Below are positions 18,287 to 30,485 of a stretch of 34,326 nucleotides of DNA, piece by piece. Numbering within the stretch: position 1 is the stretch's first letter; each line of letters begins with the position of its first letter. The DNA is taken from NCBI GenBank assembly GCA_026416035.1, contig JAOAFY010000001.1:1-34326 (forward strand), written 5' to 3'. Below the pieces are notes generated by a model. The model saw only the letters and a program-made list of their open reading frames with translations, had not been told where the DNA came from and searched no databases. This stretch comes from Coriobacteriia bacterium. GTDB lineage: Bacteria; Actinomycetota; Coriobacteriia; Anaerosomatales; Anaerosomataceae. A program made the translations under genes and the position numbers.

Positions 18287-18597
18287 ATGCCTGCAGATCC
18301 GCTGCGAACGCCTGACGTCGAGTCACTGCTCGAAGCCTTCGCGGGGCTAGCCAGCCGAGACGACGTGTACGCATTCTTGCTGGACGTGTGCACGACCCGC
18401 GAGATACACGACATGGCGCAGCGCCTCGCCGTCGCACGCATGCTCGCAGCGGGCGTCCACTATCCGGAGATCCAGCGATCCACGGGGGCGTCCCCGACGA
18501 CGATCAGCCGGGTGAGCCGGTGCGTGAACTATGGGGCAGGCGGTTATCGCACCGTGATCGAGCGTCTTGGGACCATCGACGGGAGAGGGGGCGACCG

Positions 18598-18601
<4 letters not shown>
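18287..18601 (+). CDS. yerC: YerC/YecD-family TrpR-related transcriptional regulator
   Basis: 104 aa, all helical, matching the TrpR superfamily along its length. 'VESLLEAFAGLASRDDVYAF' is followed by 'LDVCTTREIHDMAQRLAVARML' and the helix-turn-helix 'YPEIQRSTGASPTTISRVSRC'. The C-terminal 'VNYGAGGYRTVIERL' is the signature end of the YerC group. TrpR-type proteins bind palindromic operators as dimers, often with an amino acid corepressor. Comparative work on Gram-positive bacteria has linked this group to control of histidine genes (HisR). The ATG has GAGGAG (18274-18279) at 7 bases. It overlaps dnaE by GTGA. A palindromic operator candidate lies before hisZ, 3.8 kb downstream, which makes the histidine operon the natural target. 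That link is inference. Confidence 0.9.
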
Positions 18602-22074
<3,473 letters not shown>

Positions 22075-22078
22075 CCTG

Positions 22079-22106
22079 TTGCTATAGCACTCTATAGTGC
22101 TATAGT
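22079..22106 (+). promoter_or_regulatory. Promoter of the histidine operon
   Basis: TTGCTA (22079-22084) and TATAGT (22101-22106) have a 16-base spacer and match consensus at 4 and 5 of 6 positions. Predicted transcription start is near 22113, about 40 bases before hisZ. A second TATAGT (22093-22098) lacks a partner -35. Both hexamers are covered by palindromes, so a bound repressor would block polymerase. Confidence 0.6.
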
Positions 22107-22114
22107 GACACTAT
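22082..22114. promoter_or_regulatory. Composite palindromic operator before hisZ
   Basis: An AT-rich island in GC-rich DNA. The first palindrome is CTATAGCACT (22082-22091) against AGTGCTATAG (22096-22105) with the 4-base centre CTAT, perfect over 10 bases per arm. The second is ATAGTG-A-CACTAT (22102-22114), perfect over 6 bases per arm. CTATAGTG also occurs twice in tandem (22092-22099, 22100-22107). Thus three exact ATAGTG half-sites and one near-match (CACTCT, 22089-22094) are spaced at about 8 bases, as expected for side-by-side dimers of a small helix-turn-helix repressor. The YerC-family protein encoded at 18287 is the obvious candidate. An RNA attenuator is less likely because the stem is AT-rich and has no T-run. 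Confidence 0.65.
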
Positions 22115-22153: not shown

Positions 22154-23413
22154 GTGCGACCTGCTACACCACGCGGTTTCAGAGACGTGCTGTTGGACGA
22201 GGCGGCTGAGCGAGAGGACATCGTGCGCTCGCTCATCCGGGTATTCGACGCCTGGGGCTACGCGCCGGTCGAGACGCCGGTCGTCGAGACGTACGAGACG
22301 ATTGCGGCAGCGGGGACGCATGGCGGCGAGGCTGAGCCGTTCAGGCTGCTCGACGCAGACGGCGAGCTGCTGGCGCTCAGGCCCGACATGACGCTTCCGA
22401 TCGCGCGTGTTGCCGCGACGAGGCTGGCCGATGAGCCCGGTCCGGTGCGGGTGCGTTACGTCGCGCCCGTCTTCCGCGAGCATGCGTCGTTCCGCGGACA
22501 GGCACGCCAATTCACGCAGGTCGGCGTCGAGCTCGTCGGCGCATCCGGGCCGGCCGCTGACGCCGAGATCGTCGCGGTGGCCGCCGAGGCGCTGCGTGCC
22601 GCTGGGCTCCAGACGTTCACCATCGCCATGGGGAGCGTCGAGGTTCTAGGCGAGCTTGTCGCCGCCGCGAAGATGCCTGAGCGGTGGCAGACGGCTGTGC
22701 TGCGTGCGGCCCACGTGCGCAACCTGCCGGAGGTCCAGCGCTTGGCGCAGGAGCCAGGCGTCCCGGAAAGTGTCTCCTGTGCGCTCATGACCGTGCTTCG
22801 CACCCGTGGCGGCGCCGAGGCGATAGATGCGTGCAGAACGGCGCTGTCGGAGTGCGGCCGCCCGCGTGCGCTCGACGCGCTGCGCGAGACGTTCGGCATC
22901 TTGGAAGACCTCGGGTACGCGCGGGAGGTCGTCGTCGACTTCGCCACGGTCCGTGCGTTCGGCTACTACACGGGTATCGTGATGCAGATGTATGCGCCCG
23001 GCCTCGGCCTGCCGGTCGGGGGCGGCGGCCGCTACGACCGGCTGCTCGCGGCCTTCGACCGTCCAGCCCCGGCCGCCGGGTTCGCCATCGGCCTCGAGCG
23101 TCTCGCCATCGCGCTGGCCGAGGCGGGTGGGACGCCGAGACCCCGGCGTCTGGATGCTCTCGTCGGCGGTACCGATCCCGCCGGGTGCTTCCGTGCCGCA
23201 GCCGAGCTGCGCGCGGCGGGGTGGCGGGCACGCCTTGCATGCGGCCTTACCGGGCTCGATCTGGTGCGGGAGGCCGAGCGGGCCAAGGCCTTCGAGGCCA
23301 TCGAAGAGGCCGGCGGGGTCCTGTACCGGCTCGATCGCGCGGGCGGGCGCGCCGACCGCATCTTGTCTTCAGCACCCCCGCCGGGCTCGGGTGAGAGAGA
23401 GGGGCAGCCGTGA
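22154..23413 (+). CDS. hisZ: ATP phosphoribosyltransferase regulatory subunit
   Basis: 419 aa, a histidyl-tRNA synthetase paralogue that lacks aminoacylation and instead activates short-form HisG and gives histidine feedback. Class II synthetase-like core: 'TPRGFRDVLLDEAAERE', 'LLALRPDMTLPIARVAATRL' (motif 2 region), 'VRYVAPVFREHASFRGQARQFTQVGVELVG', 'AFGYYTGIVMQMYAPG' and 'PVGGGGRYDRLLAAF'. A C-terminal domain continues to about 400, longer than in some HisZ proteins that lack the anticodon-binding part. The GTG at 22154 follows GGAAGGGG at 5 bases. It is the first gene of the his operon, directly downstream of the palindromic operator. Its stop overlaps hisG (TGATG), in line with the two proteins forming one complex. 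Confidence 0.93.
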   Translation: MRPATPRGFRDVLLDEAAEREDIVRSLIRVFDAWGYAPVETPVVETYETIAAAGTHGGEAEPFRLLDADGELLALRPDMTLPIARVAATRLADEPGPVRVRYVAPVFREHASFRGQARQFTQVGVELVGASGPAADAEIVAVAAEALRAAGLQTFTIAMGSVEVLGELVAAAKMPERWQTAVLRAAHVRNLPEVQRLAQEPGVPESVSCALMTVLRTRGGAEAIDACRTALSECGRPRALDALRETFGILEDLGYAREVVVDFATVRAFGYYTGIVMQMYAPGLGLPVGGGGRYDRLLAAFDRPAPAAGFAIGLERLAIALAEAGGTPRPRRLDALVGGTDPAGCFRAAAELRAAGWRARLACGLTGLDLVREAERAKAFEAIEEAGGVLYRLDRAGGRADRILSSAPPPGSGEREGQP

Positions 23414-24087
23414 TGGTGCGCTCGCCGGGACCAGGTGCCGCGCTGCGTGTCGCCGTGCCGAAAGGGGCGCTCTACGACGACAGCGTGGCGGCGCTTGCAC
23501 GCGCCGGCATCGACGCGGCCGCCCTCCGCGAGCCGGGCAGGTCGCTTGTGGTCAGGTGCGGCGACGTCGAGTTCGTGATCGCGAAACCTACCGACGTGCC
23601 GATTTACGTCGCGTATGGAGCCGTCGATGCGGCGATTGCAGGACGAGACGTCCTCGAAGAGGCCGGCCTCGAGGTCGTGGAGCTCGTCGATCTCGGCTTC
23701 GGTGCGTGCCGGTTCGTCGTCGCCGAGCCCGTCGGCGCGCTGCGGAGCGCCGAGGAGATGTACAGGCACCTTGGGCAGATCCGCGTCGCGACGAAGTATC
23801 CGCGGATCACGGAGCGGCACTTCGCGGAGCGGGGGCTGCAGGTGGAGATCATCAAACTCGCAGGCAACATCGAGATCGCCCCGCTCATCGGCATCGCTGA
23901 CTGGATCGTGGACATCACGGCGACCGGCACGACGCTTCGCGAGAACGACTTGCGCGTGGTAGAAGAGGTGATGGAATCGACGGCGCGGTTCGTCGCCAAC
24001 CCTGCGAGCCTGGCGACGAAGACGGCGCGCATCACCGAGATGGCCGAGCGGCTGGCAGCCGCGACACGTGGCGAGAAAGGGGCGTGA
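23413..24087 (+). CDS. hisG: ATP phosphoribosyltransferase, short form
   Basis: 224 aa, the short HisG that lacks the C-terminal regulatory domain and needs HisZ. It joins ATP and PRPP to phosphoribosyl-ATP, the first step of histidine synthesis. Visible: 'RVAVPKGALYDDSVAAL', 'DVEFVIAKPTDVPIYVAYGAVDAAIAGRDVL', 'IRVATKYPRITERHF' and the PRPP-binding loop 'DWIVDITATGTTLRENDL'. The ATG at 23413 forms TGATG with hisZ and has GAGGGG about 8 bases upstream; a GTG at 23410 is an alternative. The residues before 'ALRVAVPKG' are not conserved. Confidence 0.96.
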   Translation: MVRSPGPGAALRVAVPKGALYDDSVAALARAGIDAAALREPGRSLVVRCGDVEFVIAKPTDVPIYVAYGAVDAAIAGRDVLEEAGLEVVELVDLGFGACRFVVAEPVGALRSAEEMYRHLGQIRVATKYPRITERHFAERGLQVEIIKLAGNIEIAPLIGIADWIVDITATGTTLRENDLRVVEEVMESTARFVANPASLATKTARITEMAERLAAATRGEKGA

Positions 24088-24090
24088 GCC

Positions 24091-25425
24091 GTGCTTCGTC
24101 GAGTGGTCATCGAGCGTGGCAGAAGGCTTCCGGCAGAAGACCTGCGTCCGGCAGGGACCGGCATCGATGGCGAGGTCATCGGTGTCGCGCAGCGGATCAT
24201 CGACGAGGTCCGCACCCGGGGCGACGAGGCCGTCCGCGAGTTCACCGAGCAGCTCGATCACGTGGTTCTGGGCGACTTCCGCGTGAGCGAAGCCGAGATC
24301 GAGCAGGCGCTGGCCTCAGTGGACGAGCGATTCCGGCGTGCGATCTCCGAGGCCGCCTGGGCGATCGAGGACTTCCACCGCCGCCAGGTGCAGCAGTCGT
24401 GGTTCACGACCGGCGAGAACGGGGTGCTGCTCGGGCAGCTCGTCACGCCGATACGGCGCGTGGGCATCTACGTCCCGGGCGGTCGGGCGCGCTACCCATC
24501 GAGCGTGCTCATGAACGCGATTCCCGCGGTCGTCGCCGGCGTCGAGGAGATCGCGATGGTCGTCCCGCCGGCTCCGGACGGCACCGTCGACCCGCATACC
24601 CTGGCCGCGGCCGCCGAAGCCGGTGTCACGGAGATCTACAAGGTTGGCGGCGCTCAGGCGATCGCCGCACTCGCGTACGGCACAGAGAGCATCCCTCGGG
24701 TGGACAAGATCACGGGCCCCGGCAATGCGTACGTCACTGCCGCCAAGAAGCTCGTGATGGGCGAGGTCGGCATCGACATGCTTGCCGGACCGAGCGAGGT
24801 GCTCATCGTCGCCGACGAGACCGCCGAACCCCTGCTCGTCGCGATCGACCTCATGGCCCAAGCAGAGCATGATCCGCGGGCCGCTACCTTCCTCGTCACG
24901 ACGGATCCGGAGATGCCGGACGCTGTGGAGCAGGCGATCCGCGAGCTGCTCGAAGACTCGCCGCGGGCCGACGTGATCGTGCGAGCGCTCGAGGACAACG
25001 GCGTCGCGGTCCTGTGCCCGGACATCGACGTGGCGCTCGACGTCGCGAACGAGATCGCTCCAGAGCACCTCGAGCTTCAGGTCGAAGCTCCATTCGAGCT
25101 GCTTGGACGCGTCTGCAACGCCGGCGCCGTGTTCCTCGGCCCGTGGACGCCGGAGAGCGTCGGCGACTACGTGGCCGGACCCAACCACGTGCTCCCCACC
25201 GGCGGCACGGCCCGCTTCTCGAGCCCCTTGTCCGTCGACGACTTCGTGAAGAAGACGTCTGTCATCTCCTACACGCTGGAGGGGCTGTACGCAGACGGGG
25301 GAGCCGTCATGGAGATCGCGTCGGCGGAAGGATTGGCCGCGCATGCGGGCGCCGTCGGGCTGAGGCTGGCGCTGGCCGAGCACTACTTCGAGGAAGAGGC
25401 GGACGTCGACGAGGAGGATGCGTGA
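24091..25425 (+). CDS. hisD: Histidinol dehydrogenase
   Basis: 444 aa. It performs the last two steps, histidinol to histidinal to histidine, with NAD and zinc. The four zinc ligands can be placed: Q and H in '[10 protein letters not shown]', D in '[16 protein letters not shown]', and H in '[11 protein letters not shown]'. The catalytic Glu-His pair is in '[11 protein letters not shown]'. '[20 protein letters not shown]' and '[16 protein letters not shown]' plus '[17 protein letters not shown]' are family signatures. The GTG start is 3 bases after hisG. It overlaps hisC by one base (TGATG). An acidic C-terminal tail follows the last motif. Confidence 0.97.
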
Positions 25426-26552
25426 TGGATCACGTCCGTCCTCCGAGGGAAGCGCTGGCAGCGCTCCGGCCGTACGATGCGAAACACCTCGAGGCCGAAG
25501 TGATGCTCGCGAGCAACGAGAACCCGCTCAATCTTCCAGGCGAGATGCTGGATCGCCTTTCTGCGCTTGCGGCCGAGATCCCGTACAACCGCTATCCGGA
25601 TCCGATGGCCACCCGTCTGCGCGAGGATATCGCGCAGGCCAACGGCCTCGACGTCGGCAACGTGCTGATCGGCAACGGCGGCGACGAGCTGATCTTCGAC
25701 CTGGTGCTGGCGTGGGGCGGACCCGGCAGGGTGGTGCTCGACTTCCCTCCGACGTTCGTCATGTACTCGATCGACGCTCAAGCCACCGGGAGCACGCTCG
25801 AGAGCATGCCGCGGCGTGCCGACTTCTCGATCGACGGCGATGCGCTGCTTGAGCGGCTCGAGCGAGGCGGCGTCGACCTCGTGTTCATCGCGAATCCCAA
25901 CAACCCGACAGGCACCCTCGTCCCCGAGACGTTGCTCATCGACGTGCTGAACGCGACTGACGCGCTCGTCGTGGTCGACGAGGCGTACTTCGAGTTCTCG
26001 CGCCACACCATGCGCCCGCACATGTCCCGGCATCGCAACCTCGCGATCCTGCGCACCTTCTCGAAGGCGTTCTCGCTGGCGGCGCTGCGCGCGGGGTACC
26101 TGCTGGCACACGAGGAGGTCATCTCGGAGCTGACGAAGGTGCGCCAGCCGTACTCGGTCAACCGGTTCACGCAGGCCGCCGCCCGTCTGGTGTTCCGAGA
26201 GCGGCCGGTGTTCGAGGCGGCTATCAGCCAACTGCTGCGAAACCGCGACGTGCTCATCCACGGGCTGAGCGAGATCCCGGGCGTGGAGGTCTTCCCATCC
26301 GAAGCCAACTTCGTGCTGTTCCGTGTCGAGCACGCATCTGCGGTGTGGCGCGACCTTCTGAAGGAGCACTCGGTGCTCGTGCGCGACTTCTCCCGCACAC
26401 CAGGGCTGGAGGACTGCCTGCGCGTGAGCGTCGGCACCGAGCACGAGATGGGGCGGTTCCTCCAGGCGATGGACGAGATCATGTCGCGTCGCCGAGCGTC
26501 GGCTCACTTCGGTGTGGCCGCGCCGGCTGCGCGGCACGGCAAAGGGGAGTGA
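25425..26552 (+). CDS. hisC: Histidinol-phosphate aminotransferase
   Basis: 375 aa fold-type I PLP enzyme that converts imidazole acetol phosphate and glutamate to histidinol phosphate. Visible: 'MLASNENPLNLPG', 'YNRYPDPMATRLREDIAQ', 'IGNGGDELIFDL', 'VFIANPNNPTGTLVP', 'VVVDEAYFEFS' and the Schiff-base lysine K214 in 'LRTFSKAFSLAALRAGY', with 'VRDFSRTPGLEDCLRVSVGT' at the C-terminus. The ATG lies in TGATG with hisD. The last about 25 residues, after 'AMDEIMSRR', look like an extra tail. Broad-substrate aromatic aminotransferases share the fold; position in the operon settles the role. Confidence 0.96.
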   Translation: MDHVRPPREALAALRPYDAKHLEAEVMLASNENPLNLPGEMLDRLSALAAEIPYNRYPDPMATRLREDIAQANGLDVGNVLIGNGGDELIFDLVLAWGGPGRVVLDFPPTFVMYSIDAQATGSTLESMPRRADFSIDGDALLERLERGGVDLVFIANPNNPTGTLVPETLLIDVLNATDALVVVDEAYFEFSRHTMRPHMSRHRNLAILRTFSKAFSLAALRAGYLLAHEEVISELTKVRQPYSVNRFTQAAARLVFRERPVFEAAISQLLRNRDVLIHGLSEIPGVEVFPSEANFVLFRVEHASAVWRDLLKEHSVLVRDFSRTPGLEDCLRVSVGTEHEMGRFLQAMDEIMSRRRASAHFGVAAPAARHGKGE

Positions 26553-26554
26553 GC

Positions 26555-27157
26555 ATGGGCCGCGAAGCGATCGTCGAGCGCTCGACGAAGGAGACCTCTG
26601 TCCGCGTCAGGCTTGACCTTGACGGCACGGGCATCACCGACGTGGCCACAGGCGTGCCGTTCTTCGACCACATGCTGGAGGCGCTCGGCCGCCACGGTCT
26701 GCTCGACCTCGAGGTCGCAGCGGCGGGTGACCTAGCGGTCGATGCTCACCACACGGTCGAGGACGTCGGCATCGTCATGGGGCAGGCGCTCGACCGTGCG
26801 CTCGGCGACCGGGCCGGCATCAGGAGGTTCGGGTCTGCCGCGGTGCCCATGGACGAAGCCCTCGTGCTCGCCGCGGTCGACATCTCGGGGCGTGGCCAGG
26901 TGCACTACGCTGTCGATCTCCCCATCGAGGTCATCGGCACCTTCGATACGACGCTCGCGAAGGAGTTCCTCGTGGCGCTCGCAACCAACGCAGGGTTGAC
27001 CCTGCACGTGAGGTCTCTTGCCGGAGACAACGCTCACCACATCGTGGAGGCCGCGTTCAAGGCGGTCGCGCGGGCGCTGCGAGAGGCGGTGGAACGGGAC
27101 CCTCGTGTCGAGGGCATCCCCAGCACCAAAGGCTCGCTCGGGCCCCAAGGAGCGTGA
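26555..27157 (+). CDS. hisB: Imidazoleglycerol-phosphate dehydratase
   Basis: 200 aa, the monofunctional manganese-dependent dehydratase without the phosphatase domain found in enterobacterial HisB. The two metal-binding motifs are 'DAHHTVEDVGIVMG' and 'DNAHHIVEAAFKA'. Other family segments are 'VATGVPFFDHMLEALGRHG', 'VPMDEALVLAAVDISGR' and 'STKGSLG' at the end. The ATG at 26555 has AAGGGGAG at 6 bases. Because the phosphatase domain is absent and no hisN/hisK gene is in the window, histidinol-phosphate phosphatase must be encoded elsewhere. Confidence 0.97.
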   Translation: MGREAIVERSTKETSVRVRLDLDGTGITDVATGVPFFDHMLEALGRHGLLDLEVAAAGDLAVDAHHTVEDVGIVMGQALDRALGDRAGIRRFGSAAVPMDEALVLAAVDISGRGQVHYAVDLPIEVIGTFDTTLAKEFLVALATNAGLTLHVRSLAGDNAHHIVEAAFKAVARALREAVERDPRVEGIPSTKGSLGPQGA

Positions 27158-27162
27158 CAGGC

Positions 27163-27774
27163 GTGATCGCCATTGTCGACTACGGCATGGGCAATCTGCG
27201 GAGCGTGCAGAAGGGGTTCGAGCACGCGGGTGTCGCAGACGCGGTCGTGACCTCCGACCCGGATCTGGTACGTCGTGCGGACGCAGTGGTGCTGCCCGGC
27301 GTGGGCGCGTTCCGTGACGCGGCCGCGAACCTGCGCGCCTCGGGCATGTGGGACCTCGTCCTCGAGCGCACGGCAGCGGGCGTGCCGTTGCTCGGCATCT
27401 GCCTCGGCATGCAGCTGCTCATGGACACGAGCTACGAGGATGGCGAATGGGAGGGGCTCGGGCTGGTCGCAGGCACCTGCGAGCGGCTGCCGGCGGGCGT
27501 GAAGGTCCCTCACATCGGGTGGAACACGGTCGAACAGCCCCGTCCGAGCCGTCTGTTCGCAGGGATTCCCGACGGCGCCGCGTTCTACTTCGTGCACTCC
27601 TATCGCGTGGTGCCTCAGGATGAGTCGTGTATCATCGGGCGTGCCGAGCACGGCGTGGCGTTTGCGGCTGCGCTGGAGTCGGGGACGGTCTTCGGCGTCC
27701 AGTTCCATCCCGAGAAGTCTTCCGAGATGGGGCTCAGAGTGCTGGCGAACTTCGGGGCGATCGCAAGGGGCTGA
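27163..27774 (+). CDS. hisH: Imidazole glycerol phosphate synthase, glutaminase subunit
   Basis: 203 aa class I glutamine amidotransferase that supplies ammonia to HisF. The catalytic triad is C80 in 'LLGICLGMQLLM' with H182 and E184 in 'QFHPEKSS'. The start 'MIAIVDYGMGNLRSVQKG' is standard. Two GTGs are possible. The one at 27163 gives the usual N-terminus and lies 10 bases after AAGGAG. The one at 27154 overlaps hisB (GTGA) but is only 1 base from that site. hisA follows after 5 bases, so the usual H-A-F order is kept. Confidence 0.95.
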   Translation: MIAIVDYGMGNLRSVQKGFEHAGVADAVVTSDPDLVRRADAVVLPGVGAFRDAAANLRASGMWDLVLERTAAGVPLLGICLGMQLLMDTSYEDGEWEGLGLVAGTCERLPAGVKVPHIGWNTVEQPRPSRLFAGIPDGAAFYFVHSYRVVPQDESCIIGRAEHGVAFAAALESGTVFGVQFHPEKSSEMGLRVLANFGAIARG

Positions 27775-27779
27775 CACAC

Positions 27780-28505
27780 GTGATCATCTTCCCGGCAATC
27801 GACATCCTTGATGGCAAGGTCGTGCGGCTCAGACAAGGCCGGCTCGATGCCGTCACCGTGTACAACGACGACCCGGTCGACCAGGCGAAGCGCTGGATCG
27901 ACGAGGGGGTCGAGTGGCTGCACGTCGTCGACTTGGATGGCGCGGTGCTTGGAGAACCGGCCAACCTGGGCATCGTCGAGCGCATCGCCGCTCTCGGAGT
28001 GCCCGTGCAGCTCGGCGGAGGGCTCCGCTCGATGGAGGTCCTGGAGCGTGTGGCTGAGGCCGGCGTCAGGCGCATGGTGCTGGGCACGACGCTCGTCACG
28101 AGGCCCGCATTCGTCGCCGAGGCGTGCGAGAGGTTCGGCTCCGCGATCGTGGCGGGCATCGATGCTCGTGACGGAAGGGTAGCCATCCAGGGATGGCGAG
28201 AGGGCACCGAATACGGCGTGCTGGAGCTCATCAAAGATCTCGAGCTCCTCGGGGTGACGCGGCTTGCCTACACCGATATCTCGAAGGACGGCATGCAGAC
28301 GGGCGTGAACTACGGCGCGTACCGCGCGCTCGTCGGCCAGACGCTCCTGCCGATCACCGCGTCAGGCGGGGTCTCATCCATCGACGACATCAAAGACCTC
28401 TACGCGCTCGGTCCGCAGTTGGAAGGCGTCATCATCGGACGGGCGCTCTACGAGGGGTCTTTGTCGTTGGCGGATGCCGTGCGCGCCGGGTACGGGAGGG
28501 AGTGA
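27780..28505 (+). CDS. hisA: ProFAR isomerase (phosphoribosylformimino-AICAR isomerase)
   Basis: 241 aa (beta-alpha)8 barrel. It isomerises ProFAR to PRFAR. The N-terminal aspartate lies in '[16 protein letters not shown]' and the C-terminal-half aspartate in '[14 protein letters not shown]'; phosphate loops are '[12 protein letters not shown]' and '[12 protein letters not shown]'. Streptomycetes and mycobacteria use PriA, which also replaces TrpF. The segment '[14 protein letters not shown]' here looks like ordinary HisA rather than PriA, but this is judged by eye. The GTG start has AAGGGG at 9 bases and gives the expected N-terminus. Confidence 0.95.
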
Positions 28506-28509
28506 AGCG

Positions 28510-29277
28510 GTGCTGATGCGCCGCGTCATCCCGTGCCTCGACGTGCACGCTGGGCGTGTCGTCAAAGGCGTTCGGTTCGTCGATCTCCGAGATGCCGGAG
28601 ACCCCGTCGAGCTCGCCGCAGCGTACGACCGCGAGGGTGCAGACGAGGTGGTCTTCCTCGACATCACTGCGACCCACGAGGAGCGTCCGGTGATGCTCGA
28701 CGTCGCCAGACGTGCTGCCGAGGAGGTGTTCATCCCGTACACGGTCGGGGGCGGCATGCGCAGCGCCGACGACATCCGAGCGATGCTCGCGGCGGGCAGC
28801 GACAAGATCTCCGTCAACAGCGCCGCGGTGGCCGACCCCGCCCTCATCACGCACGCTGCGCGCATCTTCGGATCGCAGTGCATCGTCGTGGCCATCGACG
28901 CGCGGAGGGTCCCAGGCTCAACGCCTGCACGGTGGGAGGTGTTCGTGGCTGGAGGTCGCAAGAACACCGGCCTTGACGCCGTGGCGTGGGCGGCAGAGGC
29001 GGTTCGGCGCGGGGCAGGCGAGATCCTGCTTACCAGCATGGACCGTGACGGCACCAAGGATGGCTACGACATCGATCTGACGCGTGCGGTGACTCGCACC
29101 GTCGACGTCCCAGTCATCGCGTCGGGTGGTGCTGGCGAGCTCGACCACTTCGCTGAGGTGGTCGTCGAGGCGGACGCCGATGCGGTGCTCGCGGCCAGCG
29201 TCTTCCACTTCGGTGAGTTCACGGTCCGGCAGGTGAAAGAGGCGATGGCGGCCCACGGCATCCCGGTGCGGCTGTAG
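28510..29277 (+). CDS. hisF: Imidazole glycerol phosphate synthase, cyclase subunit
   Basis: 255 aa barrel enzyme. It uses ammonia from HisH to convert PRFAR to imidazole glycerol phosphate and AICAR. The catalytic aspartates are in '[17 protein letters not shown]' and '[10 protein letters not shown]'. '[13 protein letters not shown]', '[16 protein letters not shown]' and '[15 protein letters not shown]' are family motifs. The GTG at 28510 is chosen because it gives '[12 protein letters not shown]', the usual HisF spacing, with GGAGG at 10 bases; the ATG at 28516 is the alternative. Instead of hisI, a PNPOx-like gene follows. Confidence 0.96.
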
Positions 29278-29286
29278 GTGGCGCGC

Positions 29287-29769
29287 ATGAGGCCGATGCG
29301 CAGACAGGACCACAGGATGCCGCCCGACGAGGCCGAGGCGCTTCTGCGCCGCGCGAGAGTGGTGCGGCTTGGCCTTGCAGATGACGAGGGTCCGTACGTC
29401 GTGCCGCTCAACTTCGGGTTCGCGGACGGGAGGATCTACGTCCACGGCCCGCGCGAGGGCAGGCGGTTGGAGGCGATCGCGCGCGATCCTCGCGTGTGCT
29501 TCGAGGTTGATGAGTGCGAGATCGTGCCGGCCGACGAGCCGTGCGGGTACACGGCGCGGTTTGCGAGCGTGATCGGATACGGGCGTGCCCGGCTCCTGGC
29601 GACGGACGAGGAGAAGCGCGCGGGTCTCGCGGTGCTGATGCGGCACTACGGCGGGCCCGAGGATGGCTTCGAGCAGGCAGTGCTCGAAAAGACGGCCGTG
29701 GTCGAGATCGAGATCGAGTCGATGAGCGGCAAGCGGCACGACGTGCCTGTCAGGGAGGGAGGCCGGTGA
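29287..29769 (+). CDS. Pyridoxamine 5'-phosphate oxidase-like (NimA-type) flavoprotein
   Basis: 160 aa split-barrel FMN-binding protein. '[22 protein letters not shown]' and '[17 protein letters not shown]' followed by 'RVCFEVDE' are the NimA/PNPOx-like pattern, and '[11 protein letters not shown]' continues the barrel. Family members include flavin-dependent reductases and the Nim nitroimidazole-resistance proteins; most have unknown substrates. The ATG at 29287 has AGGTGG at 5 bases; a GTG at 29278 directly after the hisF stop would add three residues. It sits inside the his operon between hisF and hisI, one base before hisI. Whether it serves histidine synthesis or is only co-expressed is unknown. 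Confidence 0.88.
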
Positions 29770-29770
29770 G

Positions 29771-30142
29771 ATGGACCTCGATGCGCTGAGATTCGACGAG
29801 AAGGGTCTCATCCCGGCAGTCGTCCAGCAGCACGACACCGGCGAGGTGCTTATGGTCGCGTGGATGGACGCAGAAGCGCTGCGTCGGACGATCGCCACCG
29901 GGACGACGTGGTTCTGGAGCCGCTCCCGGCAACAGCACTGGAACAAGGGGGAGACTTCCGGCAACGTGCAGCGGGTCAAGGAGATCAGGTACGACTGCGA
30001 CGCGGACACGCTGCTCGTGCTCGTCGATCAGGTGGGCGTCGCATGCCATACGGGCGAGCGCTCGTGCTTCTTCCGGACGCTGGCGACGCTTCCGGGAGCC
30101 GAGCCTGGCGAGCCGGACGATGCGGGGTTGCCCCTGTCGTGA
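29771..30142 (+). CDS. hisI: Phosphoribosyl-AMP cyclohydrolase
   Basis: 123 aa single-domain enzyme, separate from HisE. It opens the adenine ring of phosphoribosyl-AMP with zinc and magnesium. Motifs: '[19 protein letters not shown]', '[20 protein letters not shown]', the magnesium aspartates in '[12 protein letters not shown]', and the zinc cysteines in 'YDCDAD' and '[11 protein letters not shown]'. It begins 1 base after the PNPOx-like stop. The tail after 'FRTLATLPG' is non-conserved. Confidence 0.96.
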
Positions 30143-30158
30143 CGAAGGGACGGGTGCG

Positions 30159-30485
30159 ATGACGTGCGAACCTGACCGGGACGCTGTCAGCGGCGCTCCG
30201 GGCATCGGCGAGGTGCTCGAGGAGCTGTTCGCCTTGCTGGAGCATCGCCGCCGGGAGATGCCGGAGGGGAGCTACACCGCGAAGCTGCTCGCCGGGCCGC
30301 AGGACAAGCTTCTAAAGAAGGTGGGCGAGGAGGCGAGCGAGGTGATCATCGCGGGGCGCGACCGCGACTGCGACCAGCTCCGGTACGAGATCGGAGACCT
30401 CGTCTATCACCTCCTCGTGCTCATGGTGCGCGAGGGGCTGACGCTCGACGACTTGGCCGTCGAGCTCCGTTCGCGACGTCGGTAG
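30159..30485 (+). CDS. hisE: Phosphoribosyl-ATP pyrophosphohydrolase
   Basis: 108 aa MazG-like all-alpha enzyme that cleaves pyrophosphate from phosphoribosyl-ATP. 'EGSYTAKLLAGPQDKLLKKVGEEASEVIIAG' holds the ExxE metal-binding pair, and 'RYEIGDLVYHLLVLM' the second acidic motif. The ATG at 30159 has AAGGGA at 8 bases; about 15 residues before the conserved core are variable. It is the last histidine gene. The next gene starts 9 bases after its stop, so transcription probably runs on. Confidence 0.95.
   Translation: MTCEPDRDAVSGAPGIGEVLEELFALLEHRRREMPEGSYTAKLLAGPQDKLLKKVGEEASEVIIAGRDRDCDQLRYEIGDLVYHLLVLMVREGLTLDDLAVELRSRRR

Follow-up and report, generated by a model that had tools for sequence, protein, structure and literature searches.

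A putative tandem HisR operator at the predicted promoter of the histidine operon in Coriobacteriia

The hisR-dnaE-hisZ locus and its repeats

The stretch of DNA analysed here (34,326 nucleotides with a GC content of 68%, referred to as the window) contains a histidine operon headed by hisZ, the dnaE gene in front of it and, 3.8 kb upstream of hisZ, the gene hisR, also called yerC (Table 1). hisR is present as a single copy and is the only gene of the TrpR family that was detected in the genome. Its product matches the profiles PF01371 (6.4e-22) and TIGR02531 (YerC/YecD; 1.5e-26, above the NCBIfam cut-off), and its best match in the PDB is 3g1c (1.3e-20), which is treated as the HisR of Eubacterium eligens (PMC9413887). 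HisR is a TrpR-family repressor of histidine genes with the 20-bp palindrome cacTTTAnnnnnnTAAAgtg as its operator consensus, and the HisR of R. gnavus binds its operator in the presence of histidine and loses this binding without it (PMC9413887). hisR and dnaE overlap at GTGA, with the hisR stop codon TGA at 18599-18601 and the probable dnaE start GTG at 18598. Within the his operon, a pyridoxamine 5'-phosphate oxidase-like gene (29278-29769) is placed between hisF and hisI.

The gene order hisR-dnaE-hisZ is conserved across the bacterial order. A TrpR-family gene was found in 61 of the 69 genomes of the order, and among the 57 genomes in which both genes were located, hisR precedes hisZ on the same contig and strand in 52, at a distance of 3.7-4.2 kb (usually about 3.8 kb) with one exception of 5.8 kb; in the other five, hisR and hisZ lie on different contigs. 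This is unlike the situation in the Coriobacteriales and Eggerthellales studied earlier, where hisR was never clustered with the his genes (PMC9413887), whereas here it is found near the his operon, across dnaE. Autoregulation of hisR was considered and rejected, as no HisR site with up to two mismatches was found in the 600 bp preceding each of 30 hisR genes of the order.

Table 1. Features of the hisR-dnaE-hisZ region (positions in the window)
Feature	Position	Strand	Remarks
hisR (yerC)	18287..18601	+	ATG start at 18287 inferred; frame open from 18254
dnaE	18598..22074	+	GTG start probable, overlaps the hisR stop codon; frame 18388-22074
Predicted sigma-70 promoter	22079..22106	+	TTGCTA-N16-TATAGT, extended -10 (TG before the -10); embedded in the operator
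Putative tandem HisR operator	22080..22107	+	28 bp; a pair of overlapping 20-bp sites with an 8-bp offset
D1, second HisR site	22080..22099	+	TGCTATAGCACTCTATAGTG; 2 mismatches to CACTnTAn6TAnAGTG
D2, primary HisR site	22088..22107	+	CACTCTATAGTGCTATAGTG; 0/12 mismatches to CACTnTAn6TAnAGTG
ATAGTG-A-CACTAT palindrome	22102..22114	.	D2 right half plus a CACTAT private to this genome
hisZ	22154..23413	+	TIGR00443, 2.3e-90
Remaining his operon	23410..30485	+	hisG, hisD, hisC-type aminotransferase, hisB, hisH, hisA, hisF, PNPOx-like, hisI, hisE

A first-pass annotation had described two perfect palindromes and a tandem repeat of CTATAGTG in GC-rich surroundings, and all of these are indeed present. 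The longer palindrome is formed by CTATAGCACT (22082-22091) and AGTGCTATAG (22096-22105), i.e. by arms of 10 bp and a loop of 4 bp, and the copies of CTATAGTG start at 22092 and 22100, 8 bp apart. On the forward strand of the window CTATAG occurs three times (22082, 22092 and 22100) and ATAGTG twice (22094 and 22102), with no further copies of these words or of TATAGTG.

These repeats can be described in terms of the pattern CACTnTAn6TAnAGTG, which is the published HisR consensus with two letters relaxed to n. D2 matches this pattern completely and differs from the common consensus itself in two letters; D1 starts exactly 8 bp upstream of D2. The centres of D1 and D2 are at 22089/22090 and 22097/22098, respectively, and the centre of the long palindrome, which is also the overall dyad centre of the operator, lies midway between them at 22093/22094. 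The long palindrome is the dyad of the D1/D2 pair and the tandem CTATAGTG is made up of the right half-site of each; both features are by-products of two HisR sites placed 8 bp apart. With up to two mismatches, ATAGTGNCACTAT has a single match in the window when both strands are searched (0.09 expected), and with the same tolerance no HisR-type 20-mer is found in the 1.58-Mb genome outside this element, which bears out the earlier proposal that the element is specific to the his genes.

The shorter palindrome fared differently. It had been proposed that ATAGTG-N-CACTAT is the recognised unit, whereas the unit that emerges is the 20-bp HisR palindrome CACTnTA-n6-TAnAGTG. The arms of the shorter palindrome are ATAGTG at 22102-22107 and CACTAT at 22109-22114; three congeners (G008, G009 and G010) retain both D1 and D2 and have no CACTAT at the matching position. 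Because of this absence, and because CACTAT fits neither of the two half-site registers, ATAGTG-A-CACTAT was rejected as the core operator and is probably incidental.

Conservation of the site and of its 8-bp register

The class was sampled with the genomes of the order and 40 others, which gave 98 upstream regions of hisZ from 73 genera. A HisR site with up to two mismatches precedes hisZ in 88 of the 98 genomes, as compared to 0.6% of shuffled upstream regions, and in 65 of the 73 genera. Footprinting before hisZ in relatives, which had been suggested as a check, speaks for the HisR site and against ATAGTG-A-CACTAT, which is missing from the three congeners.

When all positions upstream of the best HisR site were scored for the left half-site, an extra copy (at least 4 of 6 bases) was found exactly at -8 in 56 of 65 genera, with a minor peak at -16 (12 of 65) and values of 0-5 at most other offsets. 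The -8 half-site is present in 17 of 19 families, the exceptions being f18 and f22, which keep the 20-mer and lack the additional half-site. Genera are non-independent samples, yet the pattern covers 17 families; in the per-family table some sites were re-anchored to the downstream member of an overlapping pair, and counts such as 56/65 precede this re-anchoring. The idea that the 8-bp phasing reflects tandem dimers, expressed in the first-pass annotation, gains comparative support. In many f1 genomes the half-site at -16 coincides with a predicted -10 box of the TATACT type, so that it was dismissed as a general third unit and is credited mainly in f14 and in some Clostridia. In f18 and f19 genomes, the frame with the hisZ match mostly has at least 540 codons, compared with some 420-450 codons in the majority of genomes from the order of the window, possibly as a result of a fusion.

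The same register is seen in Clostridia, where 31 of 70 hisZ upstream regions contain a HisR site with up to two mismatches. The left half-site peaks at -8 (20 of 30) and at -16 (13 of 30), and the right half-site peaks at +21, i.e. 8 bp further downstream (10 of 31). Some of the weak Clostridial sites will be chance matches in AT-rich DNA; a preference for a single register, however, would not be expected from chance. This sample was reached via one locus (L119, labelled in its record as a Clostridiales MAG), and the numbers thus describe the class as drawn, not all Firmicutes.

Could a single HisR dimer at D2 account for these data, with the conserved upstream half-site serving as an accessory contact or being a remnant? 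The published motif is one 20-mer, a 30-bp fragment with a single 20-mer was sufficient for binding (PMC9413887), and f18 and f22 manage with the 20-mer but without the half-site at -8. In addition, D1 alone is weak, with two mismatches here and often three elsewhere, so that it may be just a flanking contact of one dimer. Against this stand the exact position of the half-site at -8 in most genera, the spacer of D2, which keeps TGTG as the would-be right half of D1, the additional half-site at -16 in some lineages, the Clostridial sites in the same register and the tandem binding of the related TrpR (PMC8745587). On balance we regard binding by one dimer as unlikely.

A site with up to two mismatches was found in 86 of 93 hisR-positive genomes, and in four hisR-bearing genomes the closest site has at least four mismatches. 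Five genomes have no detected hisR; two of them (G190 and G228) carry the site, and in three (G057, G065 and G256) it is missing, its absence in G057 resting on 45 bp of upstream sequence. The two site-bearing genomes would fit an operator that belongs to some transcription factor other than HisR. This alternative is hard to reconcile with the match to the published HisR consensus (PMC9413887), with the adjacent location of hisR in the order and with the joint absence of site and hisR in G065 and G256 (Fisher p = 0.007 for the co-occurrence, with few hisR-negative genomes), and we consider it very improbable.

The family gave no support for a larger HisR regulon, since additional matches to the pattern were no commoner than those of a reversed-pattern control, with one exception in genus g7, a HisR site that precedes a second hisG. 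In G013 a second HisR site (L302:2001-2020) lies upstream of a separate, long-form hisG (HisG and HisG_C domains), its right half being followed by an additional TAGAGTG 8 bp downstream, and G012 (L303) has a corresponding match with one mismatch.

The predicted promoter

All promoters considered here, in the window as well as in the relatives, are matches to the consensus, i.e. predictions. As such, the earlier claim that the repeats lie over the -35 and -10 boxes holds, as the TTGCTA-N16-TATAGT site is the only promoter-like one between 21900 and 22300 (0.0 expected). The best predicted promoter of the three congeners has the same position, and many f19 genomes again have one, TTGCTT-N16-TAAAGT, embedded in the operator. 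Among the remaining genera of the family, most have a best prediction of the TTGAC type with a spacer of 16-18 bp and a -10 box of the form nATACT that ends just upstream of D1; the start site would then be covered by the operator. Conservation of the promoter does not account for the D1 half-site, which is retained with either arrangement of the best predicted promoter, be it upstream of the operator, with the -10 at -18 or -13, or within the operator, with the -10 at +13.

An inverted repeat located between dnaE and hisZ could in principle also be part of an RNA element, be it a T-box, a his leader attenuator or a terminator following dnaE. No Rfam model, T-box and his leader RNAs included, matched the window at the gathering thresholds, and no terminator-like site was found, which leaves an RNA regulator or a terminator unsupported. 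Moreover, the letters of the HisR motif are conserved across the class, and most of the repeat would stay untranscribed given its overlap with the predicted promoter. We therefore find an RNA element hardly credible, even less so than another transcription factor.

Tandem binding by HisR as a model

We conclude with a probability of about 0.88 that the element is an operator for the repression of the hisZGD... operon by HisR and that its two sites would seat tandem dimers, in agreement with the earlier suggestion that the his promoter is covered by a YerC-type operator, which the comparative data support. HisR, encoded upstream of dnaE, would bind here and repress the operon when histidine, as the presumed co-repressor, is plentiful, and the two overlapping sites with their offset of 8 bp would allow two dimers to be seated in tandem, as is the case for TrpR on some operators. 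In this layout, the two dimers could probably lie side by side on the promoter, 8 bases apart; from the phasing, we infer that they may occupy it simultaneously and cooperatively. In this genus the operator would be fused with the promoter, the left half of D1 providing the -35 and the right half of D2 the -10 box, and if this promoter is the one used, HisR on its operator would directly obstruct RNA polymerase.

The regulator, its 20-mer and the Coriobacteriia as hosts are already published (PMC9413887), and the operator described here resembles those of Firmicutes and Coriobacteriia in that study in that a 20-bp palindrome precedes the his operon and a TrpR-family HisR is encoded. It differs from them by the second site, which overlaps the first one 8 bp upstream, and by the predicted promoter inside the pair. 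No mention of tandem or overlapping HisR sites was found in the main text of PMC9413887, which uses the word tandem twice, for histidine codons and for T-boxes; as far as this main text goes, the new element would be the class-wide tandem layout.

For TrpR, tandem binding of dimers to synthetic operators has been described (PMC8745587), and multiple-site binding is announced in the title of Kumamoto 1987. The trp and aroH operators of E. coli are comparable to the one described here with respect to the homologous regulator and have several dimers per operator, whereas the half-site is GNACT for TrpR and CACTnTA in our case, where the presumed co-repressor, histidine, is also a difference. The step of TrpR operators is 8 bp, and the feature expected of a TrpR-type tandem, another operator unit conserved at a spacing of 8 bp, is found here as well. 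By this analogy, a TrpR-like tandem assembly is the most plausible reading of the 8-bp step conserved among HisR operators.

It seems reasonably likely that HisR operators in most Coriobacteriia and in many Clostridia are arrays of half-sites with a step of 8 bp, comprising two and sometimes three units that would seat tandem dimers, and that promoter and array have become fused in some lineages. If true, tandem assembly would be common to the TrpR/HisR family instead of being a property of TrpR alone. The operator also provides a concrete target for HisR, a regulator with a barely studied mechanism, and leads to the prediction that the number of HisR dimers aligned on the promoter tunes the repression by histidine, for which f18 and f22, with their single site, would offer a natural comparison regarding the contribution of the second dimer.
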